From NCBI GenBank assembly GCA_023379825.1, contig JAMCPQ010000005.1:1-64000 (forward strand): 64,000 nucleotides of DNA, read 5' to 3'. Source of the stretch: Thermoplasmatota archaeon. Its GTDB lineage: Archaea > Thermoplasmatota > Thermoplasmata > Thermoplasmatales > Thermoplasmataceae. Within the stretch, counting starts at the first letter, position 1, and each line of letters opens with the position of its first letter. The position numbers and the translations under genes were made by a program. Below the pieces are notes generated by a model that saw nothing but the letters and a program-made list of their open reading frames with translations, made no database searches and was not told the origin of the DNA. Below are positions 3,342-64,000 of this stretch, in pieces.

Positions 3342-3398
3342 GTCATCTCGGTTCTAATGCTTTTTCATTGGAATATTATATGGATGAAATCTACGGGC

Positions 3399-4001
3399 TT
3401 ATGGGGGTTCCAAAGTTGCAGTTCCCATATTCATTCTGACAAGAAGGTCAGCTTCAGGCACAGAATATCCATGGGAGACGATCATCAGGTCTAACCCGTT
3501 CTTTTTTGAAAATTCTCTCAGGAAGGACATAACATCCCTCCCATCGGACAGATTTGAAATGACTTCGTCCAGAAGCAGAACCTCCTTTCCAGACAGGAGT
3601 GCGGTGGCAATTGCAACTCTCATTCGCTGCCCCTGGCTGAGTTGTGACATCCTCTTTCCAAGGGGTATCATGAGGCCTTCAGTAACCTCAGAAACAGCTG
3701 ATCTGTCAAATCTGGTGGTGTCTATCCCATAGACTATATGCCTGTCTGAGGTCATTGACATGAAGTAAGAGTTCTGAGATGCATAAACGATGGATCTCCT
3801 TTCCGGAGGGTAAAAGGAGACATCCCTTCCATTAACAATTACCCTGGAACCCTGGCAGGATGCAAGGCCTGCAATGCATCGCAGGAGAAACGTCTTTCCG
3901 GATCCATTTTCTCCGGTCACATTTATTATACCGGCTGCCCTGAATCTGGCATTCAATTTGAATCCTCCTGTTTCAGCAATTATGTCAATATCAATGGTCA
4001 T
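3399..4001 (-). CDS. ABC transporter ATP-binding protein (Mo/W/sulfate type, short form)
   Basis: Walker A GENGSGKT, signature LSQGQRMRVAIA, Walker B LLLDE; only 200 aa. Confidence 0.85.
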   Translation of the reverse strand: MTIDIDIIAETGGFKLNARFRAAGIINVTGENGSGKTFLLRCIAGLASCQGSRVIVNGRDVSFYPPERRSIVYASQNSYFMSMTSDRHIVYGIDTTRFDRSAVSEVTEGLMIPLGKRMSQLSQGQRMRVAIATALLSGKEVLLLDEVISNLSDGRDVMSFLREFSKKNGLDLMIVSHGYSVPEADLLVRMNMGTATLEPP

Positions 4002-4798
4002 GCCCTGATCACTTTTTCTGTAATGGTTCTTCCACGGCTGAGGAATTTCACCGCAAGAAGCACAGCAACCGATATAACAATGAGTATTGCGGACGCGGTT
4101 ATGGCTGGCCCAGGGCCATAGTATCCATAATACTGGTAAATCAGGACGGAGGCAGTTTCTGTGCCACTGAACAGACCTCCGGATATATAGAACACAAGTA
4201 TTGCCACGGAGCCAAATTCACTGATTGCCCTGCTCATTGAAGTCAGTGATGCTGACAGAAGGCCTCTGGCGTTGGAGGGGATGAGAAGTCCGTACAGTAT
4301 GGCTGATCTTCCCTTTCCCAGAGTTGAGGCAAACTGCTCAGGCTCTCTGTTAAGTGAAGTAAACAGGGATTGTGCCGACCTGATATATATGGGGGCAGAT
4401 ATGAATGAAAGTACAAGTACCAGACCAAATAGTGAATCGTAAAGCCCAAGGCCATGTTCTGTCAGAAATCTTCCGAAAGGTGTGATGGGGCTTCCAAGGA
4501 TGAGGAATGCTATTCCAACAATGGGGTGGGGAATAGAGGCAGGTATGTCTGAAATAGCTTCAGCCATCCTTCCGGAACTTCTGGAAAGAACGTATGAAAG
4601 GGGAGTGAATATAACAAATACAAGAAGTGCAGACAGCGCTGCAGAAAAAAGTGTCAGGGCTATGGAGTGGAAAACAGCAGGGGAATAGCCCTGAGGGCTT
4701 CTGTAAACAACAAACCCGAAGTAGAGAACAAGAGCAATAGGCAGAAGTATAAGGAGAAGTGAAATGAGTGACCATATTCCTATGGCATCACCCCTCAT
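3998..4798 (-). CDS. ABC transporter permease (tungstate/molybdate type)
   Basis: TM-rich; ModB/WtpB-like PHPIVGIAFL and SRAISEFGSVAIL (EAA-like) motifs; 4-bp overlap with ATPase gene. Confidence 0.8.
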   Translation of the reverse strand: MRGDAIGIWSLISLLLILLPIALVLYFGFVVYRSPQGYSPAVFHSIALTLFSAALSALLVFVIFTPLSYVLSRSSGRMAEAISDIPASIPHPIVGIAFLILGSPITPFGRFLTEHGLGLYDSLFGLVLVLSFISAPIYIRSAQSLFTSLNREPEQFASTLGKGRSAILYGLLIPSNARGLLSASLTSMSRAISEFGSVAILVFYISGGLFSGTETASVLIYQYYGYYGPGPAITASAILIVISVAVLLAVKFLSRGRTITEKVIRA

Positions 4799-4812
4799 CC
4801 AGGATGTTTTGT

Positions 4813-5835
4813 TCAGATAGGACCACCTTCAGAGATATCTCCATTAGCAACCATATCTGAGATGAATTGCGGAGGTCTTGTTGAATTGAACAATATTCCA
4901 TGTGAAAGAGGTTTCAATCCGTAGGGAGATAGAAGTGAACTGTGTGTTATCACGAATGTGGTAAAGTTCTCAGCTATTCCCTGATATGGCTCCCCCGAAG
5001 GATTGGAAATGAAAAGATAAATAGGCTTTCCAGTGAAGATTGCACCGGAATAGTTAAGGGAGAACCCGGAATAAAATGAAGCCAGGCTTGTATTCCCCAG
5101 TCCTGTATAACTGGAAAGATTGACATAGCCAATGTTTTTGGCAATGGCTGCAGACTTGTAGATAAACAGGAACTGAATATTGCCACTAACTAGAGGTGAT
5201 ACAAGTTCAGCAGCACTGGATGCTGTTCTGTTTCCATTGTTTGAGATAAGCCTGTCCATGTAGTAAGACTGATTATTTGCAAATAGCTTGCCAGCTATTT
5301 CAAGACTGATCCATGCTCTGTACCCAGCTGGGTCTGAAAGTGGATCAGATATTCCAACCTTCACCTTCCCGGAAGTCAGCAGGGTGTAGCCGGCATTCAG
5401 AAGAGTGGTGTTGTTTGTCGCATAACCAGTTCTGAGATCTGAAATTATCTGGTTCTCTGTTGGAGTTGAAACCGAAGCTGGCGCATAAGCCAGGGCCATG
5501 TGATCCGACGCAAATGCAACAGCCCAGCCTGAATAATGTGACCCAAGGTAACTCTGGTTGTATGAGGAAAGTGAAACACTGATGAAGTTTGTTGAGGTCT
5601 CACCCTGCCCTATTTCCCTGGCCATATCGAATGAACCACCTGATTTGACAGGCAGATGTGGTGTACCGGTTCTGTTCTGAAAGGCACTCAGCAATGTGTT
5701 GCTCTCCTGAAGGTATGCATCTGCTGAGAACACTGAAATTTCAGGTTCTGGTTTTAAGGATGAAACGAAATGGATACCAAGACCAATTGCAATCATAACC
5801 AGAGCCACAGCAATGGCGAGGACTTTCCTGTTCAT
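4813..5835 (-). CDS. ABC transporter substrate-binding protein (ModA/WtpA-like)
   Basis: N-terminal signal/anchor, ISVFSADAYLQ..., FASDHMALAYAP, VGISDPLSDPAGYRAW motifs; operon with permease and ATPase. Confidence 0.8.
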   Translation of the reverse strand: MNRKVLAIAVALVMIAIGLGIHFVSSLKPEPEISVFSADAYLQESNTLLSAFQNRTGTPHLPVKSGGSFDMAREIGQGETSTNFISVSLSSYNQSYLGSHYSGWAVAFASDHMALAYAPASVSTPTENQIISDLRTGYATNNTTLLNAGYTLLTSGKVKVGISDPLSDPAGYRAWISLEIAGKLFANNQSYYMDRLISNNGNRTASSAAELVSPLVSGNIQFLFIYKSAAIAKNIGYVNLSSYTGLGNTSLASFYSGFSLNYSGAIFTGKPIYLFISNPSGEPYQGIAENFTTFVITHSSLLSPYGLKPLSHGILFNSTRPPQFISDMVANGDISEGGPI

Positions 5836-5867
5836 ATAACCGGATAAATGATGAATATTTTAAAGTG

Positions 5868-5889
5868 TTTAATTCAATGTAGAATTAAA
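5868..5889. promoter_or_regulatory. Inverted repeat TTTAATTC-N6-GAATTAAA in divergent promoter region
   Basis: Perfect 8-bp arms, 6-bp spacer, between divergent ABC transporter and Tfx-like genes. Confidence 0.5.
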
Positions 5890-5900
5890 TGAAAATGTTT

Positions 5901-5912
5901 ACATACGTATGT
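5901..5912. promoter_or_regulatory. Perfect 12-bp palindrome ACATACGTATGT upstream of likely Tfx-like start
   Basis: Direct reading; overlaps the first ATG (5909) and precedes the alternative ATG at 5927. Confidence 0.45.
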
Positions 5913-5926
5913 TAAATGCACTCAGG

Positions 5927-6328
5927 ATGCGAACCCTATTCACTGAAAGGCAGCTGGAAATTAACCGCCTTTTGCGGGAGGGGATATCTCGAGCTGAAAT
6001 AGCATCAAGGCTTGGAATAACTGTTCAGGATGTAAGCATAACTGAACGAAGATTCAGAGAAAATCTTGAGAAGGCAGTGAACACAGTAAATCTTGCAAAG
6101 AACCTTTCAGTGGTATCGTCCATTTCACTTGCATCTGGAACACACATTCTCGATGCAAGCAAGATGATAATGAACTATGCTGACTCAGAAGGTATTAAGT
6201 TAAAGGACAACACACTGTCAGTAGTTTCAGGCCTGAGAGGATATCTAGGCTCTGATCTGAAGAATGGAAGGATGAAGCGGGACGTTGAAGTTCTCATACT
6301 TCCGGATGGGGGATTGAGATATCTCTAG
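5927..6328 (+). CDS. Tfx-family DNA-binding protein (HTH)
   Basis: [54 protein letters not shown] matches the Tfx-type HTH pattern; ORF track starts at 5909, 5927 preferred. Confidence 0.75.
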
Positions 6329-7311
6329 ATCCTCCTCATATAGACATTTGTTACTGAATGGTCAGCAGCCTTCTTCAGAATAAGATCTGCGTGGTATTTT
6401 GTCGGTTCAATATTCTCCCTCAGGTTAACACCATTGATTCTGTCCCAGATCTCCGATGCAGTCCGCTTTGCCTCTTCAACATCAAGGTCACCGTATTTCC
6501 TGAAGAATGAATTTGGATCTCTGAATGCTGTCTCCCTGAAGACAAGAAACCTGTCTATGTACCACTGCTTTATGTCCTGCTCAAGCGCGTCCACATATAT
6601 GGAAAAATCAAAGAAATCCGACACCAGGAGCTCAGGTGCGATAACTGATCTTGGAATGGTATGCCTTGTCTGAAGGACATTCAATCCTTCGAGTATGAGT
6701 ATATCAGGCTTGTCAACCATTTCATATCTGCCTGGAACTATATCATAGATCAGGTGAGAATAAACAGGAATCTTAATTTCTGGCTTTCCAGACTTGATGT
6801 CATACAGGAATCTTATGAGAGCCCTGAGATCATAGCTTTCTGGAAATCCTTTTCTTTCCATGATACCTTTTTCCCTGAGAATTGAATTGGGGTAAAGAAA
6901 CCCGTCAGTGGCAACAAGGTCTACCTTTGGCCTTTCAGGCCAGCGGGAAAGCAATGTCTTCAGCAACCTTCCTGTGGTGCTTTTTCCAACAGCAACGCTC
7001 CCTGCTATCCCTATAACGTAAGGTACTCTGTCCACATCTTCGCTGAGGAAAGTCTTTCTTGCCCTGAAGAGTTGAGAGGATGCATCAAAATAAAGCTTCA
7101 ATAGCCTTGAGATTGCAAGATATACCTCTTCTACCTCAACAGAAGAGACCATCTCGTTTATTCCCCTTATGATTTTCAATTCGTCTTCAGAGATGGTCAT
7201 CGGGGTTGAATTCCTGAGCCTGCTCCATTCTGTTCTATTGAAGGCCACATAAGGGGACGCTCCATTTCTGTTTAGGTTGCTGAACATATTTAGGACCAGA
7301 TGAGGCACCAA
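6325..7311 (-). CDS. coaA: Pantothenate kinase, bacterial type I (CoaA)-like
   Basis: P-loop [70 protein letters not shown]. Confidence 0.9.
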
Positions 7312-7409
7312 TATTGAATTGCTTTAATATGCTTATTATTCACCCCAATAAGGGCGAATTAATGGCCCATAAGAGAAAATCCATTATCCAATCAGGTGAA
7401 TGATTATGA

Positions 7410-7493
7410 CGCTGGGAGGGAGATTCGAACTCCCGAGCTACGAGAGCACAGGCTTTCCAGACCTGCGCCTTACCGGGCTAGGCTATCCCAGCT
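7410..7493 (-). tRNA. tRNA-Ser (anticodon GGA)
   Basis: Reverse complement folds as a class II tRNA: GCTGGGA/TCCCAGC acceptor, TAGCCTAGCCCGGTAAGGC D-arm, CTGGAAA anticodon loop, long variable arm, GGGAGTTCGAATCTCCC T-arm. Confidence 0.95.
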
Positions 7494-27975: not shown

Positions 27976-28231
27976 CTGTGCTCTCTGCCCCCTTGACAAG
28001 CGACGCAACTGATGTCTCAGGCAGATATGCTCCACCTGCAAATTTATATCCGCAGTGCCTGCATCTCCATATTCCAGTGGCCACCCTCTTCACCTTCTCC
28101 TGTTTACATGAGGGGCAAGCGTATGTTGCAGACTTCTGCTTGTAAATCTCATTCCATGCCTTTCTGACAGTAACCCCGTACCTTGGGCCAAATCTGCCAG
28201 AAGCTCCTACCTTTACGGTTCTCTTGGACAT
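27968..28231 (-). CDS. rpl37ae: 50S ribosomal protein L37ae
   Basis: [52 protein letters not shown]. Confidence 0.96.
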
Positions 28232-28236
28232 CTATA

Positions 28237-29019
28237 TCACTTGAAATATTTCTCCCTGATAGCTTTACCCAGATTGCTGGACATATTAATAGCCTTTCTA
28301 ATTTCCTCCATGGAGAATTCACCAACATCCCCCTTCTGCATGGCCCTTATATGTCCATCCTCTGTTGTGCTTACAGTTATCCTTGCTGACGAGAGCTGTT
28401 CTTCTTCCAGGTCAGGGTCTGCTACCAGAGTGTCTCCTATTTTAACCATTGTTACTGCAACAGGAGTATTCCTTATGGGTAGCGGGAAGTCCTTTCCACC
28501 CTCCTTCGATCCCGGAACAATGGTACTCTTCAGTGCTGCAAGAACACCGAGAGTGCATGCATCTATCAGGTTCCCGTCAAAGTCAATGACATCTATATCA
28601 ACAAATACTATCCAAACCTTCTTTGCCGGCTCTATGACGAGGCTCTCAATATCAATCATTTTGCTCTCTCTGATGCCTCTGTCAACAACCCTTGCAATTT
28701 CTATGGATGTGTCATTGGGTGGTCCCGCCTCAAATGTGGGGAATGCCATTGGCAGAAGTTCAACATTTGTTGTCAGCACTCCCTGATTGGGTGTGTCTGG
28801 AAATGGTTCTCCTGCCTCAACCTTAATTCCGGCAACTACCTTTGTTTTTCCAAGGCATACCATTGCAGAACCGGGGGATCTGGGCACATAGTTTGGTGTA
28901 ATGGATATTTCCCTGTATTCATCAGGTTTTCTGCCGTCTCCCCTTTTTCCCTCCTTCAACCTTCTGAGAATAAAGTCTCTCTTTATTTCTGAGAGTATTC
29001 CCGCCTCATCTCTCGGCAT
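28237..29019 (-). CDS. rrp42: Exosome complex protein Rrp42
   Basis: RNase PH fold; GDGRKPDEYREISITPNYVPRSPGSAMVCLGKTKVVAGIK. Confidence 0.95.
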   Translation of the reverse strand: MPRDEAGILSEIKRDFILRRLKEGKRGDGRKPDEYREISITPNYVPRSPGSAMVCLGKTKVVAGIKVEAGEPFPDTPNQGVLTTNVELLPMAFPTFEAGPPNDTSIEIARVVDRGIRESKMIDIESLVIEPAKKVWIVFVDIDVIDFDGNLIDACTLGVLAALKSTIVPGSKEGGKDFPLPIRNTPVAVTMVKIGDTLVADPDLEEEQLSSARITVSTTEDGHIRAMQKGDVGEFSMEEIRKAINMSSNLGKAIREKYFK

Positions 29020-29762
29020 TATTCACCACTCCTTTCAAGGGCTATAGCCTTGTATTTTCCTGCAAGTGCATCCCTCTGAATCTTGTGTATCTTCTTCGTT
29101 GCCTCCAGTATCATGGACGAGGCTTTTTCGAACTCTTCAACTGAGAGGTCTCCATCCATCTGAAGGAGAACTACGTTTCCACTTTTTGGAAGAACTGCCA
29201 TTGGAAGGTCCGCCTGGCCGAAATTATCCTCCTCCTTGGAAAGATCCAGAACAACCTGGCCCTCAACTTTTCCAGCTGTGCATCCTACAACCATATCTTT
29301 CATTGGTATTCCTGCTGCAGCCAGAGCCACGGAAGATGCAGTAAGTCCTGCAATCCTTGTTCCCGCGTCGGCCTGCAGGACCTCGATGTATACATCTATC
29401 TCTGCTCTCGGGAACTGGTTAACCATTACTGCGCTGGAAAGGGCTTCAGAGATAACCTTTGATATCTCCATGGATCTTCTGTCCGGTCCCGGTCTCTTTC
29501 TCTCATCCACAGAGAATGCTGCCATATTGTATCTGGCCTTGACCACTGCCTTGTCTATATCCTGTGTATGCTTAGGAAATGCTTCCCTGGGGCCATATAC
29601 CGCAACAAGTATCTTGTTCCCTCCCCATTCAATGTATGCGGAACCGTCTGCTCTTGCTAGCACATCCGTCTCTATCTTCATCGGTCTCAGTTCATCCGCT
29701 GAGCGCCCATCGAGCCTGAGACCATCCTCGTTTATGAGTTTAATATCACTCGCTGTTCCCAA
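29019..29762 (-). CDS. rrp41: Exosome complex exonuclease Rrp41
   Basis: [49 protein letters not shown]. Confidence 0.96.
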
Positions 29763-30471
29763 CTATTTCACCTTTTTTCTCTTCAAGATATTTCTGCATC
29801 CTGTCCGTAAGACCTGTTGTGTGTGCCTCCTCCTCAACCATCCTGATGGCGGAAATTGCCACCATGACGTTCTCGGGGGCTCCATCGATCCATATAAGTC
29901 CATTCTGCCCAACCACTATCCTTGTTGAAGTGGCGTCCTTTATCATGTTAACCATCGATCCCCCTTTACCTATGATACGGGGAATCTTTGGGGCCGCTAT
30001 GCTTGTGATATGGCCACCCTCCATCTTTCTTAGCCCAACATCCTTGAGGGTAACCCAGCTTTCCCTGATCTCGTTAACTGACATTATTTTGGCATAGACA
30101 TAGTCTCCAACACCCAGGAACCTCTTAAGGTCTCCAGGATTTACTCTCCAGGGGGTGTCATTGATATGTAAAAGGGTGTTGTATGCAGAGTTAATATCTA
30201 TAACCCACATGGATGGGCCCACATCTATTATCTTTCCTATTACTTTGTCTCCCCGTCTCGGCATATAAATTCCGGAAAAAGGGACAACATCAAGGAACTG
30301 CTCTGATACCTGCACGGTACCGAAGTAACAGGACGAATAGGTGCCGTCACTGTTTCTGTATGTTCCATTCCTTGGCTTCGTTCCTTCGGCCTGAACAATG
30401 TCGCCGGGAAATACTATTTCTCTTGTTTTAACCATATGTTCACCGATTGCTTCCCGATGGGGAACTAACAT
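29746..30471 (-). CDS. rrp4: Exosome complex RNA-binding protein Rrp4
   Basis: S1 domain [24 protein letters not shown] domain [16 protein letters not shown]. Confidence 0.95.
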
Positions 30472-49849: not shown

Positions 49850-51451
49850 ATGGTGTTTCATGATCTGAGGGATTACCTCAAAGAGCTGGATAAGAAAGGA
49901 TTGCTTAGAACTGTCGATCGGCCTACGAAGATAGAAACTGAGCTGATGCCTCTTGTCAGAGTGCAGTTCAGGGGAATGCCGGAATCACAGAGAACAGGCT
50001 TTCTCTTCACAAATGTCCATAATTCAAAGGGAAGGAAATTCGATGCAAGAGTTTGCACCGCTGTTCTTTCAAGTTCCATGGATATTTATGCAACTGGGAT
50101 GGAGTGCAAACCTGATGAGGTTCCTGATCGCTTCACATTCGGAATAAGTCATCCCATTGAACCAAAGCTGGTAGGCAGCGGAAAATGCCAGGAGGTTGTA
50201 ATAAGCGGTGAGGATTTGGAGAAGCATGGCCTTATGGATATCCCATTTCCAGTCGAGATTCCCGGTTACAGCTGCCAGGTAAGAACCACAACTGCATTCG
50301 TTACAAAAGATCCGGAAACAGGCGTGCAGAATGCAGGTACCTATTCTGGGCAGGTATTCGGACCAAGGAAGATTCTGTGGGAAATACACAGAGGAAGCCA
50401 CGGGTTCACCCATCTCAAGAAAGCTGCAGAAAGGGGTAAGACCATGGATGCAGCGATTGTTATTGGCGGTCCCCCCTACGTTCAGTATACGGCAGCAGCC
50501 AAGGTTCCTTACGGAATGGATGAGTTCGCTGTGGCAGGAGGGATAGCCGGTGAGCCCATAGAAGTTGTACGATGCAAAACAGTCGATCTGGTAGTGCCGG
50601 CAACAGCGGAATACATAATTGAAGGCAGGGTCTCTGTAGAGGACTTCGAACAGCAGACCCCATTCGGGGAATACACAGGTTATGTTGCAGCAGATGTGGA
50701 AAGTCAGTGGTGCCCTGTGATGGAAGTGACAGCTGTGACTCACAGGAAGGACAGTCCAATATTTCAGACAATCATTAGCCAGATGCCTCCAAGTGAAAGC
50801 AGCAAACTCAGGCAGGTTGCATATGGAAGTGCTTTCACAAAGTTTCTGAAAGATGACTGCGGCCTTCCTGGAATAAGGAAAGTGGCTTTTCATGAATCAA
50901 GCGGAAGCTGGCAGTACTGTGTCATACAGCTGAAGAAAACCGGCCCTACGGATGCAATGAGAGCTCTTGTCTGTGCATCAGGATATGCCTCAGACATTGG
51001 AAAGGTGATAATTGCAGTGGATGAGGACATAGATCCCTTTGACCCTGATTCTGTCAACTGGGCTTTGAGTTTCAGGATGCAGCCTCACAGGGACATTCAG
51101 ATAATTAGGGGAAAGTCTGCCCATCTTGATCCGTCGGCGGCGAATCCTGGTGAGGAAACTGGGCCAAAGGGCTATCTCGAGAGCTCTGCGCTTCTCCTTG
51201 ATGCAACGAGAAAGACAGACTATCCACCAACTTCACTTCCGAAGCGCGAGTACATGGAGAATGCACTCAAGATATGGAAGGAACTTGGATTTCCTGAGCC
51301 TGTAATGAAGAACCCGTGGTACGGATATGATCTGGAAAAATGGACAAGCGAGTATGACAGGTACTCAAAGATGGTACTCCATGGAGATCATTTTCAGATA
51401 GGTAAGGAGCTGGAAAAGAAAAGGATAAAAATGAATATACTGGAGAAGTAA
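49850..51451 (+). CDS. UbiD-family decarboxylase (paralog 2, non-canonical triad)
   Basis: NAGTYSGQVFGPRKILWE, QQTPFGEYTGY, VDEDIDPFDPDSVNWAL, C-terminal TSLPKREYMENALKIWKELGFPEP. Confidence 0.9.
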   Translation: MVFHDLRDYLKELDKKGLLRTVDRPTKIETELMPLVRVQFRGMPESQRTGFLFTNVHNSKGRKFDARVCTAVLSSSMDIYATGMECKPDEVPDRFTFGISHPIEPKLVGSGKCQEVVISGEDLEKHGLMDIPFPVEIPGYSCQVRTTTAFVTKDPETGVQNAGTYSGQVFGPRKILWEIHRGSHGFTHLKKAAERGKTMDAAIVIGGPPYVQYTAAAKVPYGMDEFAVAGGIAGEPIEVVRCKTVDLVVPATAEYIIEGRVSVEDFEQQTPFGEYTGYVAADVESQWCPVMEVTAVTHRKDSPIFQTIISQMPPSESSKLRQVAYGSAFTKFLKDDCGLPGIRKVAFHESSGSWQYCVIQLKKTGPTDAMRALVCASGYASDIGKVIIAVDEDIDPFDPDSVNWALSFRMQPHRDIQIIRGKSAHLDPSAANPGEETGPKGYLESSALLLDATRKTDYPPTSLPKREYMENALKIWKELGFPEPVMKNPWYGYDLEKWTSEYDRYSKMVLHGDHFQIGKELEKKRIKMNILEK

Positions 51452-51452
51452 T

Positions 51453-52082
51453 TCAGTACTTCTCCATATATTCAATGACCCGGCTCATTGGCGAAACTTC
51501 CCCAAAATTTTCATGAAAGTTCTTCAGGAAAGGAACGTGCATATCAATATACGGTGTACTGACACACTCCTCAACAATCACGGTCTCGTAGTCATTCATG
51601 AACAGTTGCCTGGCAGTAGAGTCCACACAGAGATTTGTCTGCGTTCCAGTAACGAAAACACGTTCCACACCAAGCGTTCTAAGAATCACAGGCAGATCCG
51701 TTCCCAGCATGGCGTCATATCTGTGTTTCACAACCACCGGTTCACCGGGAAGAGGTTTCAGGCCATCAACAATTTCTGTCCCATATGATCCGGAAGCACA
51801 AATCCCGGGAGCATTGGATTTCCCTCTATTTCTTGATTTCCATACGGAAGAGTCGGTAAACTTTTCATGCACAGTTCGGGTATACACGACAGGTATCCCT
51901 TTTTTCCTGGCTTTTCCAATCAAAATGCCTATTCTGTCAACCGTTGCCTTTACAGGTGACAGGTCAATGCCACTTCGCGCCAGATAACCATCGTCTGATA
52001 CGAAGTCAACCTGCATGTCGATCACAAGAAGCGCGCTTCCTGCTTTTTTCCATGAATTTTTTGCAGTGAACATCCGGATCAC
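51453..52082 (-). CDS. Isochorismatase-fold cysteine hydrolase
   Basis: LLVIDMQVDF (Asp), VKHRYDAMLGTDL (Lys), VTGTQTNLCVDSTARQ (Cys). Confidence 0.9.
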   Translation of the reverse strand: MIRMFTAKNSWKKAGSALLVIDMQVDFVSDDGYLARSGIDLSPVKATVDRIGILIGKARKKGIPVVYTRTVHEKFTDSSVWKSRNRGKSNAPGICASGSYGTEIVDGLKPLPGEPVVVKHRYDAMLGTDLPVILRTLGVERVFVTGTQTNLCVDSTARQLFMNDYETVIVEECVSTPYIDMHVPFLKNFHENFGEVSPMSRVIEYMEKY

Positions 52083-52085
52083 GAC

Positions 52086-52802
52086 TCAAAGAACTGTGCC
52101 CCTTTTCTCCACTCTTGTAAGGAAATATCCCCAGTCTGATTCCTGGAGTTCCTCTCTTATCTCAGCTGATTCACTTCGCTCTATATCCTCAAGCGGGAAC
52201 TCCAAAAATTTACCAATTGCCCTGAGATAATAGCTTTTGCGGGCGGCACGTTCAAGCGCAGCAGCTCTCGTTACGACTTCTTCAATGCTTCTTCCAACCA
52301 TGAAAACCCCGTGACCTCTATGCAGCAGAACATCCTTACTTCCAAGAAGATCCGCCATCTCCTCACCCATCTTTTCTGTATTCACGAATAATGGCAGGCC
52401 TGAATATACGGCGATGCCCTCTGTGAAGAGAAATGAATCTCTTGAGGAAAACAACATGTCTTCCCCGGACATTCCAATCAGATTACTGTAGAATGCGTGC
52501 ATATGGAGTGCAGCTTTCAACTCCGGCCTTCGTCTGAACATGGCGGAGTAGAAGTAGAATTCGTGCATCGATTCGGGATATCTTCCCTCAATTACTTTTC
52601 CGTCGTAATCTATTGTTACTATATCAGAGGCTGTGCAGTCCGCAATGGATCTCTGATAATCATGCAGATGGCCGGGTATGAGAATCCTGTTGTCAGAAAT
52701 CTTGTAGACAACATGCCCTCTCCCAAGTTCTGTCAGGTTCTCATTAACGAGGATTCTGTTGGCCATTGCCAGCTTCTGTTTAAGGCCTTCATAATTTTCC
52801 AT
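52086..52802 (-). CDS. Class II aldolase/adducin family protein
   Basis: ALHMHAFYSNLIGMS, VLLHRGHGVFMVGRSIEEVVTRAAALERAAR. Confidence 0.88.
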   Translation of the reverse strand: MENYEGLKQKLAMANRILVNENLTELGRGHVVYKISDNRILIPGHLHDYQRSIADCTASDIVTIDYDGKVIEGRYPESMHEFYFYSAMFRRRPELKAALHMHAFYSNLIGMSGEDMLFSSRDSFLFTEGIAVYSGLPLFVNTEKMGEEMADLLGSKDVLLHRGHGVFMVGRSIEEVVTRAAALERAARKSYYLRAIGKFLEFPLEDIERSESAEIREELQESDWGYFLTRVEKRGTVL

Positions 52803-52896
52803 AATGTCAATAGGACTTTTGTTTTAATATAGTTTATCAATAGAATACCATTAGCGAATAAAAAGTAAATATAAATGCCAGCAATATTAACAAATC

Positions 52897-53571
52897 TCAA
52901 TGATTACTTCTATTCAGTATACCTGCTATCTCACTTGAAGAGAGGACATATGCATACTTCAGATCCAGATCGAAGAGTGTTACTTCATGAGATATTTTTG
53001 ATCTGTCCGCCACACATTCTTGAGGAATTGCCACAGTGTAGTTGTAGGAAAAAGCATCCAGTGCAGTTGCCCTGACACATCCAGAGGTAACCATTCCAGT
53101 AAGAACTATCCCTGTGACATGGAGATAATTCAGCATAGAGATCAGGGGAGTTCCAAAGAAAGCACTGGGTTTGGATTTTTCAATCACCGGTTCTCCCTTT
53201 AAAGGGGCAATTTCGCTGTAAATTGTGTTGTAATCCGTCCTCTGGTCAGCTGGAACAGGCTCACTCTTGTTGTTCCAGGTTCCACGATGAATTCTGTATA
53301 CATCCTGGTCAGAAGTCATGTCTCTTGTATAGATGACAGGCAGCTTTTTCCGCCTGAACAAATCAAGCATTTTTTTTATATTAGCTGAGCATGGAATTCC
53401 GGTTTTACTGAATCCTGTTCGGAACCTATCCATCACAAAGCCATTGGTCATGTCCACGATGAGCAGAGCTGGATTTTTTCCAAGATCCGGTTCTGCACTT
53501 CCATTAGGGCTTCTGTATTTTCCAAGCAGATTCTCTCTGTCCTCCAATGGGATAACATCCGGTATGTACAT
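52897..53571 (-). CDS. Isochorismatase-fold amidohydrolase (N-carbamoylsarcosine/maleamate amidase-like)
   Basis: ALLIVDMTNGFV (Asp), IEKSKPSAFFGTPL (Lys), LTGMVTSGCVRATALDAFSYNY (Cys). Confidence 0.9.
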   Translation of the reverse strand: MYIPDVIPLEDRENLLGKYRSPNGSAEPDLGKNPALLIVDMTNGFVMDRFRTGFSKTGIPCSANIKKMLDLFRRKKLPVIYTRDMTSDQDVYRIHRGTWNNKSEPVPADQRTDYNTIYSEIAPLKGEPVIEKSKPSAFFGTPLISMLNYLHVTGIVLTGMVTSGCVRATALDAFSYNYTVAIPQECVADRSKISHEVTLFDLDLKYAYVLSSSEIAGILNRSNH

Positions 53572-53641
53572 ATTAGCAGTAAATGTTAAAAATAGATAAA
53601 GAAATCCATTTTGCTTAACATTAAAAAATAGAATACGGTAA

Positions 53642-53989
53642 TTACTTAATTCTGTACCTTACCTCAAAGGTTCTGCACCCCTTCCTGGAAATCCATGGTC
53701 CGTGCGGCATTCCGGGCGGCCTACATGCATACATTCCTGCGGTGAAACTCTTTCCTAGGGTGGTATCAAAGAATTCACCTTCTATGATGTATACTTCTTC
53801 CCAGAAGTCATGTCTCTGGACACCATTCGGGGTTGTGTCAGTCCCGGGTTCGAATATAAGGATCCTGGTAGCCACTCCAGTCTCAGGGTCGCTGGAAAGA
53901 ATCCTTTCATTCAATCCCTTCACAGTTCCTGCGCATGGTGTTGCCTTAACGCTGTTCACATCAAAAAATTCCATCTCTTTTTTAGGCAT
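53642..53989 (-). CDS. Cupin-domain protein
   Basis: ILIFEPGTDTTPNGVQRHDFWEEVYIIEGEFFD ... PPGMPHGPWIS; start at MPKKEM. Confidence 0.8.
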   Translation of the reverse strand: MPKKEMEFFDVNSVKATPCAGTVKGLNERILSSDPETGVATRILIFEPGTDTTPNGVQRHDFWEEVYIIEGEFFDTTLGKSFTAGMYACRPPGMPHGPWISRKGCRTFEVRYRIK

Positions 53990-54029
53990 TCTATCTCTCC
54001 TCCATTTCAATTCTGGTTAAATGTTCATC

Positions 54030-55478
54030 CTATATGGAAGTGTGAAGATCGTATTCCTGCATGAATCTCTCAACATCAGCCATTGCAGAGTTATAGTCAA
54101 AGTTCCTGTAGGCGTACATTCTAGAGACGTAAGGAGCACCGGCATAGAACATCTCGTACTGCAGGTGCCTGCCTGCAAATTCAGAACCAATAATATCCCA
54201 TACCAGTCTGAAGAGTTTGATCCTTGAGACTGTATCAGCTGAGGATGATCCGACGTATCTCTCCATGTCCTCTCTTGTTTCCGGATTTTCTATTTCCATG
54301 AAGGTGGAAGGGAGCTGTAATACACCAGCCCCCGATAGCTCCTTAAGTATGCCTACAGCTCTGGGATATATCTCAGCCTGAAGACCCATTGGCCCGTAAA
54401 GATATCTGGGATTGGGCACAAATGCCCCGTATTCCCTCTTCGATCCGGATGCCTCAGATGCAATGCACATACCCTCAACCATAGATGATATGGAGGCAAG
54501 TTCACCGAGACGCTCCAGAACTCCCTGAATTCTGTCTGTTCCATTCATCTTTGCAACTTTTGCTGCCAGTCCTGCGATGAAACGCAGTTTAACTGCAAGC
54601 CTGATCTGTGCCTGGTTGTTTCCATAAATATGTGCTGGTGTCTCAAAGAACTGTGCCTGCAGTAGCTTAACATCCCTGAATACAAAAACGTCACTCCAGG
54701 GTATGAAAACATCATCAAAAACCACAATGGCATCGCTTTCATCAAACCTGGTGGACATTGGATAGTCAAAAACACTTGTTCTGTAAAAACCATACGGTGG
54801 CCTGCAATAAAGTTTCAAGCCTCTTGCACCTATCGGGACAACAAAGGATAGGGCGTAATTTTCATCCCCCTCCCCCAGTGGTGGTATACAACTCACGAAG
54901 AGTTCATCTGCCACCGCTGCACCTGTTCCAAGCATCTGAGACCCCCTGACCACTATCCCGTCCTGTCTCTCCTCAACCAGAGATACCTGGATATGTGAAT
55001 CAGGAAGTTCATGGGCTTTTTTTGATCTGTCAACCTGAGGAGGAATTATGGAGTAAGACAGATAAATATCACTGTCCACAAGTCTCCTGTAGTGCCTTAT
55101 GACGTTCTCACTGAATGGCTTTGCTCCTCTGTCAAAGACTGCTGGATTTGACGCAAAGCCTGCGAAAAAAGATCCAACATGGTCAGGGCTCCTTCCCACG
55201 AATCCCATGGACATTTCCGCCCATTTAGCTATGGCCTGATGCCTCTCGTTTAGACCGTTCAGGTCATGTGGAATCATAAAGGTCCTGTTGCCAGTTGTAC
55301 CCCATGGTGTTTTGAATTGCATCTGATTTTTTGGATCCGAAGAATAATCATACATCTTTTTCAGTGTATCTATTATCCCTTTGAAATAAGGGGATTTAGT
55401 GACATCTGTTACAACTTCACCATTGATGTATACCTTTCTATTTCCGAGGGAATTCTCATAATCAGATCCTGTTCTCAT
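54030..55478 (-). CDS. HpaB-family flavin-dependent monooxygenase (4-hydroxyphenylacetate 3-monooxygenase large-component-like)
   Basis: RKVYINGEVVTDVTKSPYFKGIIDTLKKMYDYSSDP, GRSPDHVGSFFAG, AIVVFDDVFIPWSDVFVF. Confidence 0.93.
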   Translation of the reverse strand: MRTGSDYENSLGNRKVYINGEVVTDVTKSPYFKGIIDTLKKMYDYSSDPKNQMQFKTPWGTTGNRTFMIPHDLNGLNERHQAIAKWAEMSMGFVGRSPDHVGSFFAGFASNPAVFDRGAKPFSENVIRHYRRLVDSDIYLSYSIIPPQVDRSKKAHELPDSHIQVSLVEERQDGIVVRGSQMLGTGAAVADELFVSCIPPLGEGDENYALSFVVPIGARGLKLYCRPPYGFYRTSVFDYPMSTRFDESDAIVVFDDVFIPWSDVFVFRDVKLLQAQFFETPAHIYGNNQAQIRLAVKLRFIAGLAAKVAKMNGTDRIQGVLERLGELASISSMVEGMCIASEASGSKREYGAFVPNPRYLYGPMGLQAEIYPRAVGILKELSGAGVLQLPSTFMEIENPETREDMERYVGSSSADTVSRIKLFRLVWDIIGSEFAGRHLQYEMFYAGAPYVSRMYAYRNFDYNSAMADVERFMQEYDLHTSI

Positions 55479-56155
55479 TTATCCTCAACCTCGATCCTGT
55501 ACTCCAGATTTACGGAAAAGTTGGAATTATCATGGAACATTGAACCTCTAAAGCCTTCAGAAAATATGAATTTCCCACCTTCAATAGGAACCGTTCCTAG
55601 AAACATAACCAGATTTCGCGGAATTCCCCCATTCTCCTCCTGCAACATAGCGGCAAGTTTCAGAGGCTGAATCAGATCTGTTACCTTTCCCTTCTGGTAT
55701 TGTTTCCAGGCACCACTGCGAAATGTTTCTGATTTGAGTGAAATCTTCTCCCATTCCTTAACAGCATCTTCAAGAGGGAATGCAACATCCGCGATTGGTT
55801 TAGGGCAGGAAGCTTTACTTTCTGCTATGCTCCTTCGCTCAATGTCTCTGTCCGTATGGTCGCTTCCAAGTGTAATATAATAAGAACCTTCTGATATGAG
55901 AAGAACAGGTTCAATTTCGCCTGATGTCATCTTTCCTCTTACTTTGATGATTTTATCCTGCGAAGCTAGTTCAGGTGGAACTCTGTAGAAAGAGGGGACC
56001 TTTTTCGGAACCTCAATTCCCTGGTCCCTCAACTCCTGAAGATGTTTTTCCACATTTTCTCTGTTTGAACCGGTGAATCCTGCAATAAAGAGGTCATAGT
56101 CATTGACAAAAATTGTTTCATTCAGACCGGGGACTTTGAATTTCAGTCTCTTCAT
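55475..56155 (-). CDS. DUF2848-family protein
   Basis: LFIAGFTGSNRENVEKHLQEL, VPSFYRVPPELASQ, YITLGSDHTDRDIE, SKASCPKPIADVAFPL; 4-bp overlap with HpaB gene. Confidence 0.75.
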   Translation of the reverse strand: MKRLKFKVPGLNETIFVNDYDLFIAGFTGSNRENVEKHLQELRDQGIEVPKKVPSFYRVPPELASQDKIIKVRGKMTSGEIEPVLLISEGSYYITLGSDHTDRDIERRSIAESKASCPKPIADVAFPLEDAVKEWEKISLKSETFRSGAWKQYQKGKVTDLIQPLKLAAMLQEENGGIPRNLVMFLGTVPIEGGKFIFSEGFRGSMFHDNSNFSVNLEYRIEVEDK

Positions 56156-56159
56156 ATTA

Positions 56160-56645
56160 TCACTTCCCTGTTGTTTCGAATTTTCTCCTGTAATATACCA
56201 TTGAAGTGTTCTGATTGTGTATGATGCCTGCTGTCACCCTGCCGATTATCATGGCATGATCTGCAATGTCCTCCTCCATATAGAGGTCACATTCAATTCT
56301 GCCAATGGAATCTTTGAGATAGGCTATGCCATCTGAAGTAACACCGCGACTGAACTTCAGAAATTTATCTTCGTCTCCATCTCTGGAAAAACCTACTGCT
56401 GCATCTTCCTGATTTCCACTGAGCAGGCTGACAACAAATTTCCTGCTCTTGCCTATTGCATCAAGGGTCCGGCTGCCCTTTATTATGAAAACTGCCACCA
56501 GGGGAGGATTCATGGATACAGTGGTAAATGAGTTCATGGTTGCACCGTAATCCCTGCCATTCAGTGATGTTGAGACGACTGTGACTCCTGTTGGATATCT
56601 CCTCAGCAATTCCCTGTATTCGTCCCCGGAAAATGATTCGCTCAT
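56160..56645 (-). CDS. HpaC-like flavin reductase (small component)
   Basis: RYPTGVTVVSTSLNGRDYGATMNSFTTVSMNPPLVAVFI. Confidence 0.9.
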   Translation of the reverse strand: MSESFSGDEYRELLRRYPTGVTVVSTSLNGRDYGATMNSFTTVSMNPPLVAVFIIKGSRTLDAIGKSRKFVVSLLSGNQEDAAVGFSRDGDEDKFLKFSRGVTSDGIAYLKDSIGRIECDLYMEEDIADHAMIIGRVTAGIIHNQNTSMVYYRRKFETTGK

Positions 56646-56907
56646 AATGGAGAAATACGGCTCTCTATAAATGTTTTCTTTTTCAATTCAAATGATAGTA
56701 TGAATTGGCTTTGTATATCTTATTACCAAATTCAGATTAATAAATAAAGACCTAATGCCTTAGAAGATAAATAAATTTCACAATGCATTTAGAGATCCCG
56801 TCAGAATAGTGGGAATCTATTATTTTTCAATAAAATGACTATTTTTCAGAAATTTCGTTTTTTTAATCATAAAACATGATTTTTATACCAATTTACAATT
56901 TTGATGC

Positions 56908-57480
56908 ATGAACAGAATAAACGATGCTGTTTCCCTGATAGTGGAAAATAATCCGATCCATGCATTGATGGTAAGAAGTGGGGTATGCAACAGCACCAGT
57001 CTTGCCAGAAGAATCAAACCAAGTGTTGATGCAATGCTTGGAAAAGATGTGAAACTGAATTCTATTGTGAAGGCGATCTCAGGCCTGAAGCCGGACGAGG
57101 GCTGGGACAGACAGCTTGAATTTCTAAGGAGTTCAAATCTCACCCTTGAATATAGGCATTCAGAGAGAGAGGGAAATGTTGAAAGCCTGAAACTGGATAA
57201 TTTTGTTCTAGCATACCGGGATATGGGGCACATCAGAATAGTGGAAAGGGATGTGGACCATGGGAATCTGGCATGTATAAGGATCAGGCTCCCTGAAAAC
57301 GCATCAGGTGCACCGGGCCTTTCCCTGTTCATTGTGCAGTATCTCATGATTCAGAGGCATCCTGTGGAGAGAATTTACAGGCTTGGAAGAGAGATCATGC
57401 TTATTTGCAGTACGGAAGAGGCAGAGGTCATTCTGAAGCATCTGAGCAGGCTTATGTTCAGCAAAGAACCGGGCAGCTGA
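56908..57480 (+). CDS. Conserved archaeal-type hypothetical, candidate regulator (HTH plus ACT-like architecture suspected)
   Basis: 190 aa; N-terminal NDAVSLIVENNPIHALMVRSGVCNSTSLARRIKPSVDAMLGKDVKLNSIVKAISGL; TATA-like tract ~25 nt before ATG (leaderless-like). Confidence 0.5.
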   Translation: MNRINDAVSLIVENNPIHALMVRSGVCNSTSLARRIKPSVDAMLGKDVKLNSIVKAISGLKPDEGWDRQLEFLRSSNLTLEYRHSEREGNVESLKLDNFVLAYRDMGHIRIVERDVDHGNLACIRIRLPENASGAPGLSLFIVQYLMIQRHPVERIYRLGREIMLICSTEEAEVILKHLSRLMFSKEPGS

Positions 57481-57482
57481 AA

Positions 57483-57502
57483 TAAAGGTAAATTGACCTT
57501 TA
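57483..57502. promoter_or_regulatory. Near-perfect 20-bp palindrome TAAAGGTAAATTGACCTTTA
   Basis: 9 of 10 base pairs symmetric; between candidate regulator gene and UbiD paralog 3. Confidence 0.55.
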
Positions 57503-57585
57503 GATATTTCAGGTAAATCATTTAAACCACTTCAACCAATGGATAGAATAAAAAAAACTAAATATCTTGGTTTTCTTAATAAAAA

Positions 57586-59187
57586 ATGGAACATTATTAC
57601 AGAGACCTCAGAGAATACCTTTCAGTTCTGAAGGAAAATGATCTCCTGTACGAGATTGACCGGCCTGTGAAGAAGGAGACGGAGCTAACGGCCATCTCAA
57701 GGTTGCAGTACAGGGGAATGCCGGAGGACAAAAGGAAGGGTTTTATATTCAACAATGTTGAAAGTGTGAGCGGAAGAAAGTATGACATCCCTGTTGCGAC
57801 AGGCATTTATGCCTCCTCCCTCAGGATGTATGCCCTGGGTGTAAAGGCAGAACCCACAAGAGAGTCCATTGTTGGCAAATGGGAGAAGGCACAGCTGAGC
57901 CCTGTGAAAACCAGAATGGTTGAAAGTGCCAGGGTGCAGGACATTGTGATCAAAGGTGACGACCTCGATAAAGATGGAAAGGGGTTGGACTCTCTGCCAA
58001 TACCTGTGGAGCTACCTGGATTCAGCGGCCAGATCAGGACATCAACCCAGATCATTACCAGAGACCCTGAAACTGGTATAAGGAACGTTGGAAATTACTC
58101 GGCTCATCTCTTCGGCAAGAGAAAAATGATGTGGGAAATAAACAGAGGAAACCAGGGCATAATTCACTGGAACAAGTGGAAGAAACTTGGAAAACCAATG
58201 CCTGCTGCAATAGTTGTTGGTGGCCCTCCGTCATATTTCTTTGTGGGAGCAGCTAAAATTCCGTACGGTGTGGACGAGTTTGACATTGCCGGAGGATTCG
58301 CAGGGGAACCCGTGGATATGGTCAAGTGCAAAACAGTGGACATGGAGGCTCCGGCCAATGCAGATATCATAATAGAGGGTCTCATATCCACGGAATACAT
58401 GGAACCGGGAAATGCCTTTGGCGAATACACCGGTTATATGGCAACTGACGTATGGTTGAGGCCGGTTATAGACGTTACAGCAGTAACCATGAGAAAGGAT
58501 CCTGTATTTGTACACATAATGAGCCAGTTTCCCCCAAGTGAAAGCAGCAAGGTCAGGCAGGTTTCTTCTGAAAATGTGTACCTGAAATTCCTGAAATATG
58601 ATGCAAAAGTCCCCGGCATAATAGATGTAGCATGGCATGAAATGAGTCAGGCTCAGTGGTGTGTTATAAAGATAAAGAAACAGAACAAGTCCCACCCATG
58701 GCAGGTTCTCAATATGGCAGCAGCTTACGATCTTAGATGGGGGAAGTTCTTCATAGTTGTGGATGACGACATTGACATCAGATCAATGGATGCTGTGATA
58801 TGGGCACTTGGCTGGAGAGTACAGCCCGCCAGAGATGTCAGGATATTCAGTGGAAAGATGCCGGGTCTTGATCCATCAGCATACAGTCCGGGAGCAAGCC
58901 ATGAAGAGAAAGAATTTCCAGGAGGAGTGGGCAGTTCAGGAATACTGATTGATGCAACAATCAAATATCCCTATCCTCCAACATCACTTCCCAGAAAAGA
59001 ATACATGGAGAATGCGCTCAAAATTTGGAAGGAGCTGAAATTGCCTGAACTGAATCTGGTGGAGCCGTGGTACGGCTATGAACTTGGTTACTGGCCGGAT
59101 GAATTCAGAAAAGACGCAGAGGATATAGTCAGTGGCAATGTATACAAAATAGGTGAGCGCCTGGGCAAACTCCGTCAGAAAGTTTAA
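57586..59187 (+). CDS. UbiD-family decarboxylase (paralog 3, non-canonical triad)
   Basis: NVGNYSAHLFGKRKMMWE, EPGNAFGEYTGY, VDDDIDIRSMDAVIWAL, C-terminal TSLPRKEYMENALKIWKELKLPE. Confidence 0.9.
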   Translation: MEHYYRDLREYLSVLKENDLLYEIDRPVKKETELTAISRLQYRGMPEDKRKGFIFNNVESVSGRKYDIPVATGIYASSLRMYALGVKAEPTRESIVGKWEKAQLSPVKTRMVESARVQDIVIKGDDLDKDGKGLDSLPIPVELPGFSGQIRTSTQIITRDPETGIRNVGNYSAHLFGKRKMMWEINRGNQGIIHWNKWKKLGKPMPAAIVVGGPPSYFFVGAAKIPYGVDEFDIAGGFAGEPVDMVKCKTVDMEAPANADIIIEGLISTEYMEPGNAFGEYTGYMATDVWLRPVIDVTAVTMRKDPVFVHIMSQFPPSESSKVRQVSSENVYLKFLKYDAKVPGIIDVAWHEMSQAQWCVIKIKKQNKSHPWQVLNMAAAYDLRWGKFFIVVDDDIDIRSMDAVIWALGWRVQPARDVRIFSGKMPGLDPSAYSPGASHEEKEFPGGVGSSGILIDATIKYPYPPTSLPRKEYMENALKIWKELKLPELNLVEPWYGYELGYWPDEFRKDAEDIVSGNVYKIGERLGKLRQKV

Positions 59188-59204: not shown

Positions 59205-59696
59205 GTGGCAATGTCTGAATATCTGGGAAAGAAGATTCCGGAGAATATTCTTTCCATAATTTCTCCGGACAAAGAAGATCGCCTTAACAGTGCTGTTTTC
59301 CTGATAACTGTGGACACAGACGGATCTCCGAGGTCTGCATTGCTGTCTCCCTATCAGATATGTTCTGTTTCAGAAGGGGAATTTTTCTTCACAGTTTATA
59401 AAGGCTCTCACACTTCAATGAACCTTGAAGAGAATGGGAAGTCCCTTTTTATTTTCCAGATTGAGGGTGGTGTCACATATGTCCGGTGCATTTCGGAAGT
59501 GATGCCTCAGGAGAGTATAAAAAACTATTTTTCTGATGAAATTCTCTTTCTGGCTTCAGATCTGGAGGTCTCAAGAGACTTTTCTGAAAAGGCAAGAATC
59601 ACATCAGTAACATCATTCGACCAGTCCAGTGTGCAGAAAAACTACACCGAAACATTCAGGCAGATAAGGAATGTGGCAAAAAGCTGGAAGAGCTAG
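59205..59696 (+). CDS. Pyridoxamine 5'-phosphate oxidase-like FMN-binding split-barrel protein
   Basis: LITVDTDGSPRSALLSPYQICSVSEGEFFFTVYKGSHTSMNLEENGKSLFIFQ. Confidence 0.65.
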   Translation: MAMSEYLGKKIPENILSIISPDKEDRLNSAVFLITVDTDGSPRSALLSPYQICSVSEGEFFFTVYKGSHTSMNLEENGKSLFIFQIEGGVTYVRCISEVMPQESIKNYFSDEILFLASDLEVSRDFSEKARITSVTSFDQSSVQKNYTETFRQIRNVAKSWKS

Positions 59697-60256
59697 TCCA
59701 CACCCCACTCTAGCCTGTGTTTTGTATCAATCCCCAGCATTCCAAGCACTCTTCCTGCAGTGAGGTCGACCATCCTGGAAAAATCATTAAGCTCAAAGTA
59801 AAGTGGGGGAAGTGGGGGCATTATTATTCCTCCTGCCTCGGTAACCTGAAGCATATTTCTTATGTGTATGAGGTTCAGAGGGGTCTCTCTCGTGAGCAGA
59901 ACCAGCCTTCTCCTCTCTTTCAGGTGCACAGAAGCTGCCCTTGACACCAGATTATTCTCAAATCCGGTAGCAATGCTTGACAGAGTTTTCATTGAACACG
60001 GTGCAACTATCATTCCTGAGGTTTCAAAGGAACCGCTTGCAATTGGAGCTTCAAAATCGTATTCGCCATATGATCGGGTGGCAAGAGATTCAAGTTCAGA
60101 CGGTTTCAGTTTTGTCTCAATTCTAAGGGTTGCTTCTGCACCGGAGGAAACTACAAGATGGGTCTCAATATCAGGAATCTCTCTGCATATCTGCAGCAAC
60201 CTCACTCCATATACTGCCCCGGTTGAGCCGGTAACAGCTATAACAATTCTTCTCAT
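59693..60256 (-). CDS. ubiX: UbiX-family flavin prenyltransferase
   Basis: IVIAVTGSTGAVYGVRLLQI, MIVAPCSMKTLSSIATGFENNLVSRAASVHLKERRRLVLLTRETPLNLIHIRNML, MPPLPPLYFEL. Confidence 0.95.
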   Translation of the reverse strand: MRRIVIAVTGSTGAVYGVRLLQICREIPDIETHLVVSSGAEATLRIETKLKPSELESLATRSYGEYDFEAPIASGSFETSGMIVAPCSMKTLSSIATGFENNLVSRAASVHLKERRRLVLLTRETPLNLIHIRNMLQVTEAGGIIMPPLPPLYFELNDFSRMVDLTAGRVLGMLGIDTKHRLEWGVD

Positions 60257-63689: not shown

Positions 63690-64000
63690 TCAGGATTTCT
63701 TATCATTGTGGCGTTTCTGGGCATCCTGGACGGCGTCCACTATCTGCTGGTATCCTGTGCACATGCAGTAATTTCCATGCAGTTTCTCTCTGATCTCCTC
63801 CCTGCTCAGCTCAGGATATTCTCTGATGAGATGGTGAGTCATCATCAGAAATCCAGAGGTGCAGTAACCGCACTGCATGGCGAAATGTTCTCTGAATGCT
63901 TCCTGTTCTATGCTGAGCTTTCCATCACTTCCCTCCAGAGACTCAACGGTTTCAATGCTCTCCCCATCCACCTGAACTGCCAGGATCTGGCAGGATTTGA
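63690..64000 (-). CDS. CoxS-like (2Fe-2S) subunit of xanthine-oxidase-family molybdenum hydroxylase, 5' end outside window
   Basis: Reading frame stays open to the edge (KSCQILAVQVDGESIETVESL), FAMQCGYCTSGFLMMTHHLI, LHGNYCMCTGYQQIVDAV. Confidence 0.9.
   Translation of the reverse strand, partial: KSCQILAVQVDGESIETVESLEGSDGKLSIEQEAFREHFAMQCGYCTSGFLMMTHHLIREYPELSREEIREKLHGNYCMCTGYQQIVDAVQDAQKRHNDKKS

Follow-up and report, generated by a model that had tools for sequence, protein, structure and literature searches.

The window analysed here (bases 1-64000 of the 79523 on contig C5, from an archaeal metagenome assembly of 53 contigs that is 82% complete) carries genes for two UbiD-family proteins, P2 and P3, in which two of the three residues of the catalytic motif are replaced. 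Of the five UbiD-family genes in the source genome, this contig carries four: P4 (48234..49709), P2 (49850..51451) and P3 (57586..59187), all on the plus strand, and P5 (C5:67756-69219), beyond the window. P4 and P5 are canonical. P4 was the "paralog 1" of a first-pass annotation of this DNA, which had called it canonical from NVGTYR and EGPLGE, and the alignment agrees, with all of R, E and E intact. P2 and P3 are both 533 amino acids long and were assigned from Pfam matches, from orthologs, which for P2 lie in five other genomes, and from their AlphaFold2 fold. The closest named relative is Thermoplasmatales archaeon UBA447 (95% identity at P2).

Substitutions in the catalytic motif of P2 and P3

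The motif of characterised UbiD enzymes is published as R-Xn-E-X4-(E/D) (PMC5818171), in keeping with the annotation's premise of a conserved triad; its residues are named here by the Fdc1 numbers R173, E277 and E282. In P2, N161-AGTY-S166 (NAGTYS; 50330..50347, plus strand) has the metal-ligand Asn and a Ser at R173, and Q269-TPFG-E274 (QTPFGE; 50654..50671, plus strand) has Gln at E277 with E282 present. The corresponding motifs of P3 are N167-VGNY-S172 (NVGNYS; 58084..58101, plus strand), again with Ser at R173, and G275-NAFG-E280 (GNAFGE; 58408..58425, plus strand), with Gly at E277 and E282 present. All four motifs are in frame where the annotation had placed them by hand, and the losses of R173 and E277 and the retention of E282 that it had read from them are borne out.

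In pairwise alignments with HmfF and in the multiple alignment, the Ser of both proteins aligns with R173 with no intervening gap, the metal-ligand Asn five positions before it serving as the anchor, and the Gln of P2 and the Gly of P3 fall on E277. The frame of the alignment was checked with VdcC. The residues aligned were R168 and L425, matching the published equivalents of Fdc R173 and L439 (PMC8379154). A mistake in the register or in the hand alignment is ruled out by these ungapped, anchored alignments together with the VdcC numbering.

Conservation of R173, E277 and E282 across the UbiD family

We aligned 129 UbiD-family proteins taken from the source genome, its relatives, a scan of a genome collection, plasmid records and PDB alignments. 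The scan was limited to close similarity to P2, and the remaining sources covered plasmids and the phylum to which the window belongs; near-copies were kept, so that the counts below tally sequences rather than independent events. At the R173 column, Arg is present in 118/118 other UbiD-family proteins, including all the remaining UbiDs of the genomes that carry P2 or P3, and Ser in 11/11 P2/P3 orthologs. The E277 column has Glu in 113/118 others (Asp, Cys or Asn in the other five), Gln in 6/6 P2 and Gly in 5/5 P3 sequences. E282 is Glu in all P2 and P3 proteins and Glu or Asp in 117/118 others, the exception being a haloarchaeal partner gene cut by the end of its locus.

The annotation had allowed that many characterised, active UbiDs might share these substitutions. 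Every enzyme with a solved structure or annotated as a characterised type that we could place in the alignment, however, has Arg at R173: HmfF, AroY, VdcC, phthaloyl-CoA decarboxylase (PcdA), PpcA and PpcB. Some of these had been considered as relatives with the same losses and were rejected. PcdA, PpcA and PpcB each have both R and E, and AroY, which gave Gly at 277 in a first alignment, has Glu in that column once its loop insertion is aligned.

No loss of R173 elsewhere in the phylum was seen where we examined it (392 genomes searched; beyond P2 and P3, only general UbiDs of ∼30% identity), and no report of a natural UbiD lacking R173 was found in the open-access literature, which is weak evidence since subscription papers fell outside the search. 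As 129 proteins are a far smaller sample than the whole family, UbiDs without this Arg may also exist outside the P2/P3 group.

Other changes around the site

Among the columns conserved in at least 88% of the family, only four are altered in both P2 and P3: an Asp column (Asp in 105/118 others; Tyr140 in P2, Phe146 in P3), R173, E277 and G278 (Thr in P2, Asn in P3). The loss is therefore concentrated on the catalytic motif. The metal ligands N168 and E233 are present in both proteins, as are the equivalents of E282 and L439. The H191 position, which is variable in many canonical members as well, is His in P2 and Gln (Q190) in P3.

Both proteins have also gained charges at shared columns (P2/P3: E136/E142, R145/R151, E178/E184, R181/R187, K319/K322 and K465/R470), which are mostly missing at those columns in the rest of the family; the first four pairs lie no more than 30 residues from R173. 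R145 of P2 (50282..50284, plus strand) and its counterpart R151 of P3 (58036..58038, plus strand) are a new invariant Arg, fixed in both paralogs and present in 0/118 others, in a column that is usually Ile. At the R181/R187 column, Arg occurs also in 7/118 others. At the level of sequence, the loss of one fixed Arg and the gain of another nearby are suggestive of a relocation.

Family membership and predicted fold

By Pfam, P2 matches the UbiD Rift-related domain with 176 bits (7e-52) and UbiD_C with 75 bits (6e-21), and P3 matches them with 171 bits (2e-50) and 78 bits, the cut-offs being 23-24. For NCBIfam TIGR00148 (UbiD family decarboxylase; cut-off 244.85), P2 scored 250.9 and P3 244.2, just under the cut-off. 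Both fell far below the cut-offs of TIGR02723/TIGR02724, the alpha and beta subunits of phenylphosphate carboxylase (564.6/468.95; 99.7/137.3 bits for P2 and 108.2/136.6 bits for P3). AlphaFold2 predicted a UbiD fold for both, with a mean predicted local distance difference test score (pLDDT) of 84.9 for P2 and 85.6 for P3, and the best PDB matches of the models in Foldseek were HmfF and E. coli UbiD, with template modelling scores of ∼0.7-0.8 by query length. In place of the canonical residues, P2 reads S/Q/E and P3 S/G/E, the last residue alone being kept. On these scores and alignments, P2 and P3 belong by fold to the UbiD family but lack the motif defining its catalytic family.

HmfF of Pelotomaculum thermopropionicum (PDB 6h6v/6h6x), a furan-dicarboxylate decarboxylase, is the closest solved relative of both proteins by sequence, and of P2 by fold. 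It differs from them in its canonical NVSIHR and EGPFGE motifs, in its low identity (27-28%) and in lacking their C-terminal extension. The closest solved relative of P4 is 7pda, described in the structure library as a phenazine-1-carboxylic acid decarboxylase.

Phylogeny, distribution and selection

A maximum-likelihood tree was made from 63 sequences with the motif columns included; branch supports are Shimodaira-Hasegawa-like approximate likelihood ratio values from a quick search, with no bootstrap. The P2 clade and the P3 clade each received support of 100, and the two were sisters with 98. Their own sister (support 100) was a bacterial clade from Anaerolineae, Paraburkholderia and rhizobial plasmids, in which R and E are canonical; P2 and P3 thus group with this clade, apart from P4 and P5. 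One further sequence, from a genome with the label Deltaproteobacteria and likewise carrying R and E, branched outside all of these. In the simplest account, R173 would have been lost once on the stem, followed by the duplication and by later divergence at 277 and 191. With P2 and P3 as sister genes, a single loss before the duplication is the most economical reading.

Members of the bacterial clade (Anaerolineae L023; Paraburkholderia caribensis L050; rhizobial plasmids L051/L052/L056) are 37-42% identical to P2 and P3 over ∼98% of the length and share their C-terminal extension. They differ in having R173 and E277, in lacking H191 and in having no Arg at the R145 column. The UbiD genes of the rhizobial and Paraburkholderia relatives (at ∼11905-13632 in L050/L051/L052/L056), whose products are without the H191 metal ligand, lie near molybdenum hydroxylase genes as in the archaeal cluster, and in Neorhizobium and Paraburkholderia a UbiX gene is close by, as near P3. 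To our knowledge, no member of this clade has been characterised.

P2, P3 or both were found in 7/77 genomes of one Thermoplasmatales family, spread over four genera, and in no other genome among the 392 drawn from the phylum. Both genes are complete in four of the carriers, and two more have a complete P2 with a P3 truncated where the contig stops. In the seventh genome, which is 81% complete, P3 lies close to the end of a contig and there is no P2. For a pair of species within the genus, the ratio of nonsynonymous to synonymous substitutions (dN/dS) was 0.018 for P2 and 0.013 for P3, compared with 0.034 for the canonical P4; these ratios are rough because synonymous sites are nearly saturated. 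P2 and P3 are under strong purifying selection. Together with the orthology and the tree, this backs the annotation's suggestion of a distinct subfamily, one without the R173-E277 duad.

Gene neighbourhood

A gene for a small PNPOx-like protein of 163 amino acids (59205..59696, plus strand) adjoins P3. Its similarity to known families is weak (Pfam PNPOx_N below the cut-off; PDB PNPOx matches at 6.5e-7), and a counterpart stands beside P3 in all four other clusters that reach that far (G063, G034, G040 and G044; L059:14475-14960, L060:18951-19622, L063:13787-14266 and L064:13317-13811). It may be a flavin-handling partner of P2 and P3. A UbiX flavin prenyltransferase, above the cut-offs of the NCBIfam UbiX families, is encoded at 59693..60256 (minus strand), and this gene, too, is conserved near P3.

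Five further neighbours of P2 and P3 are on the minus strand. They encode an isochorismatase-family amidohydrolase (51453..52082; NCBIfam BiuH/RutB below cut-off, PDB amidohydrolases), a class II aldolase/adducin-family protein (52086..52802; Pfam Aldolase_II), the oxygenase component of an HpaB-type flavin-dependent monooxygenase (54030..55478; Pfam HpaB_N/HpaB), an HpaC-like flavin reductase (56160..56645; Pfam Flavin_Reduct) and the [2Fe-2S] subunit of a xanthine-dehydrogenase-type molybdenum hydroxylase, which continues beyond the window (63690..64000; NCBIfam). This hydroxylase has three subunits (L058:3690-4169, 4166-5029 and 5030-7489; NCBIfam), the other two being past the window end. 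Further genes of the cluster belong to isochorismatase-family amidohydrolases, the formamidase family, cupins, the cyclase family, an amidohydrolase and MFS transporters. A large part of this set is found again, differently ordered, around P2 and P3 in G063, G034, G040 and G044, and two canonical UbiDs with two lacking R and E occur as a set in G000, G063, G034 and G040. We infer that the cluster serves the catabolism of an aromatic or N-heteroaromatic acid. A nitrogen heterocycle is favoured because of the amide-bond hydrolases; no gene fixes the substrate.

Two known carboxylases have comparable gene sets. The phenylphosphate carboxylase genes of Azoarcus KH32C encode two UbiD-like subunits, PpcA and PpcB, which are UbiD paralogs accompanied by UbiX and a nearby PNPOx-family gene as in the P2/P3 cluster; unlike P2 and P3, both retain R, E and E. 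Naphthalene carboxylase of N47 likewise has multiple UbiD-like genes together, four in number, and forms a complex of ∼750 kDa (PMC12016498).

An open reading frame of 190 amino acids (56908-57480), upstream of P3, had no Pfam match and was found, among the clusters compared, only in the sister species G063, at 93% identity. Another of 475 amino acids (C5:71217-72644; L058:11217-12644), adjoining an alpha/beta hydrolase gene, had no Pfam, NCBIfam or PDB match at the thresholds used; an impression that it is a NicX/M29-type protein found no support in these searches and was not used.

A proposed rebuilt substrate site and its alternatives

In Fdc1, which works with prenylated flavin mononucleotide (prFMN), E282 is the acid-base residue and is tuned by the R173-E277 duad, which also binds the substrate in its deprotonated form; among the three residues, only R173 affects the oxidative maturation of the cofactor (PMC5818171). 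The R173A variant accumulates the prFMN radical and has low residual activity, and the activity of E277Q is very low (PMC5818171). These variants of AnFdc1/ScFdc1 are the laboratory counterparts of the losses in P2 and P3, single changes that nearly abolish activity; in P2 and P3, by contrast, both residues are gone naturally, yet the proteins are conserved.

We tentatively favour the reading that P2 and P3 are prFMN enzymes whose substrate anchor has moved or is of another kind. The duad would have been lost in their common ancestor and a different polar network would have taken its place, with the other checked parts of the cofactor site (the metal ligands Asn and Glu, E282 and the equivalent of L439) being retained. 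The two proteins would bind prFMN supplied by the neighbouring UbiX and carboxylate or decarboxylate an acid, aromatic or N-heteroaromatic, from the catabolic cluster around them. The substrate would be anchored by the gained charges, chiefly R145 of P2 and R151 of P3 in the strand that runs up to the metal-ligand Asn, an Arg that may compensate for the lost one. After the duplication, the copies would have diverged at 277 (Q versus G) and 191 (H versus Q) with both being retained. Because they are strongly preserved by selection despite losing Arg and Glu, P2 and P3 probably do prFMN chemistry in a rebuilt site, and the loss of both duad members with E282 and the rest of the site kept would fit a redesigned carboxylate site better than decay.

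As both copies have diverged and yet are retained together, P2 and P3 probably act as a matched pair, possibly within one hetero-oligomer. In known UbiD structures, a single domain of a single chain holds all three catalytic residues. A P2-P3 complex would thus not itself restore a canonical site, since neither protein has the duad. A stricter version of the proposal, which we regard as doubtful, makes the two an obligate pair and a second active-site solution in the UbiD family, a prFMN enzyme without the Arg-Glu duad whose carboxylate-binding Arg has moved to another strand or whose cofactor is not the iminium form.

Several observations weigh against a rebuilt site. As R173A and E277Q of Fdc1 each leave only very low activity (PMC5818171), a protein with neither residue should perform poorly as an ordinary decarboxylase. 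For some family members, the alignment in the strand of R145/R151 is ambiguous by a one-residue gap. The AlphaFold2 models have low confidence immediately ahead of the new Arg or at it (mean pLDDT of 59 in P2 and 58 in P3 for residues 141-150) and also around the 277 loop (59-72), so that they cannot tell what fills the R173/E277 site.

The recurring set of two canonical and two R/E-less UbiDs, together with the multi-UbiD complexes of naphthalene carboxylase (PMC12016498) and phenylphosphate carboxylase, would also suit a scheme in which P2 and P3 have little or no catalytic activity and serve as structural or regulatory subunits of a mixed complex, with turnover left to P4 and P5; a pseudo-enzyme would be expected to keep its fold and lose the Arg. 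We consider this rather unlikely. A scaffold would not need E282, the two cofactor-site metal ligands and L439, all of which are still fixed in P2 and P3, and the two proteins are constrained at least as strongly as the canonical P4. Moreover, they group with a separate bacterial clade and not with P4/P5, and in the known hetero-oligomer neither UbiD subunit is R-less, because PpcA and PpcB both have the full motif. Less probable still is that P2 and P3 catalyse something other than decarboxylation with a non-iminium prFMN (reduced or radical), so that the loss of R173 would be tolerated because oxidative maturation is no longer wanted. The particular role of R173 in that maturation and the radical seen in R173A (PMC5818171) are consistent with this, and the PNPOx-like protein beside P3 could handle the flavin. 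However, the acid-base residue of decarboxylation, E282, is retained, the literature search found no such prFMN enzyme, and the PNPOx link is positional only.

Ordinary decarboxylation, with Arg and Glu supplied from structurally equivalent places through a register shift or a neighbouring loop, seems distinctly improbable. It has a parallel in AroY and PcdA, where a Glu before an insertion appears to occupy the E277 column, and new charged residues do flank the site in P2 and P3; but these two have no insertion at either motif, their N-x4-S register is ungapped and anchored, and Arg173 has not moved in any other member seen. That decaying paralogs, a sequencing error or a misassembly produced the substitutions is extremely improbable. 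The fragmented, incomplete metagenome assembly would leave room for such an artefact, but the same substitutions occur in 11 sequences from separate assemblies, including the single-contig, 99% complete genome G034, which leaves a contaminant shared by every assembly as the sole source for such an artefact, and there are no internal stops; decay into pseudogenes is ruled out by the dN/dS values (0.013-0.018) and the orthology.

In Fdc1, cofactor maturation and catalysis are impaired without the Arg, while the UbiD motif is described as highly conserved. A natural group maintained by selection without this Arg and its partner Glu offers a test of the purpose of the duad, which would show if the maturation or function of prFMN depends on it and if the recognition of the carboxylate can shift to another place. 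Such proteins could also widen the range of enzymes usable for aromatic carboxylation and decarboxylation.

UbiD gene pairs on plasmids

A plasmid of Paraburkholderia caribensis MBA4 encodes two UbiDs ∼16 kb apart, one P4-like (L128:10345-11799) and one P2/P3-like (28136-29794). The layout echoes that of the archaeal cluster, and the pathway may have been transferred between bacteria and archaea. On a Haloterrigena plasmid, two UbiD-family genes adjoin (L129:1486-2982 and 2979-4230). The first is canonical, and the second, cut by the end of the locus, appears to have a degenerate E282 motif (EGTEPRA); they are possibly another pair of a canonical and a degenerate UbiD. A Haladaptatus plasmid (L130) likewise carries two neighbouring UbiD-family genes.

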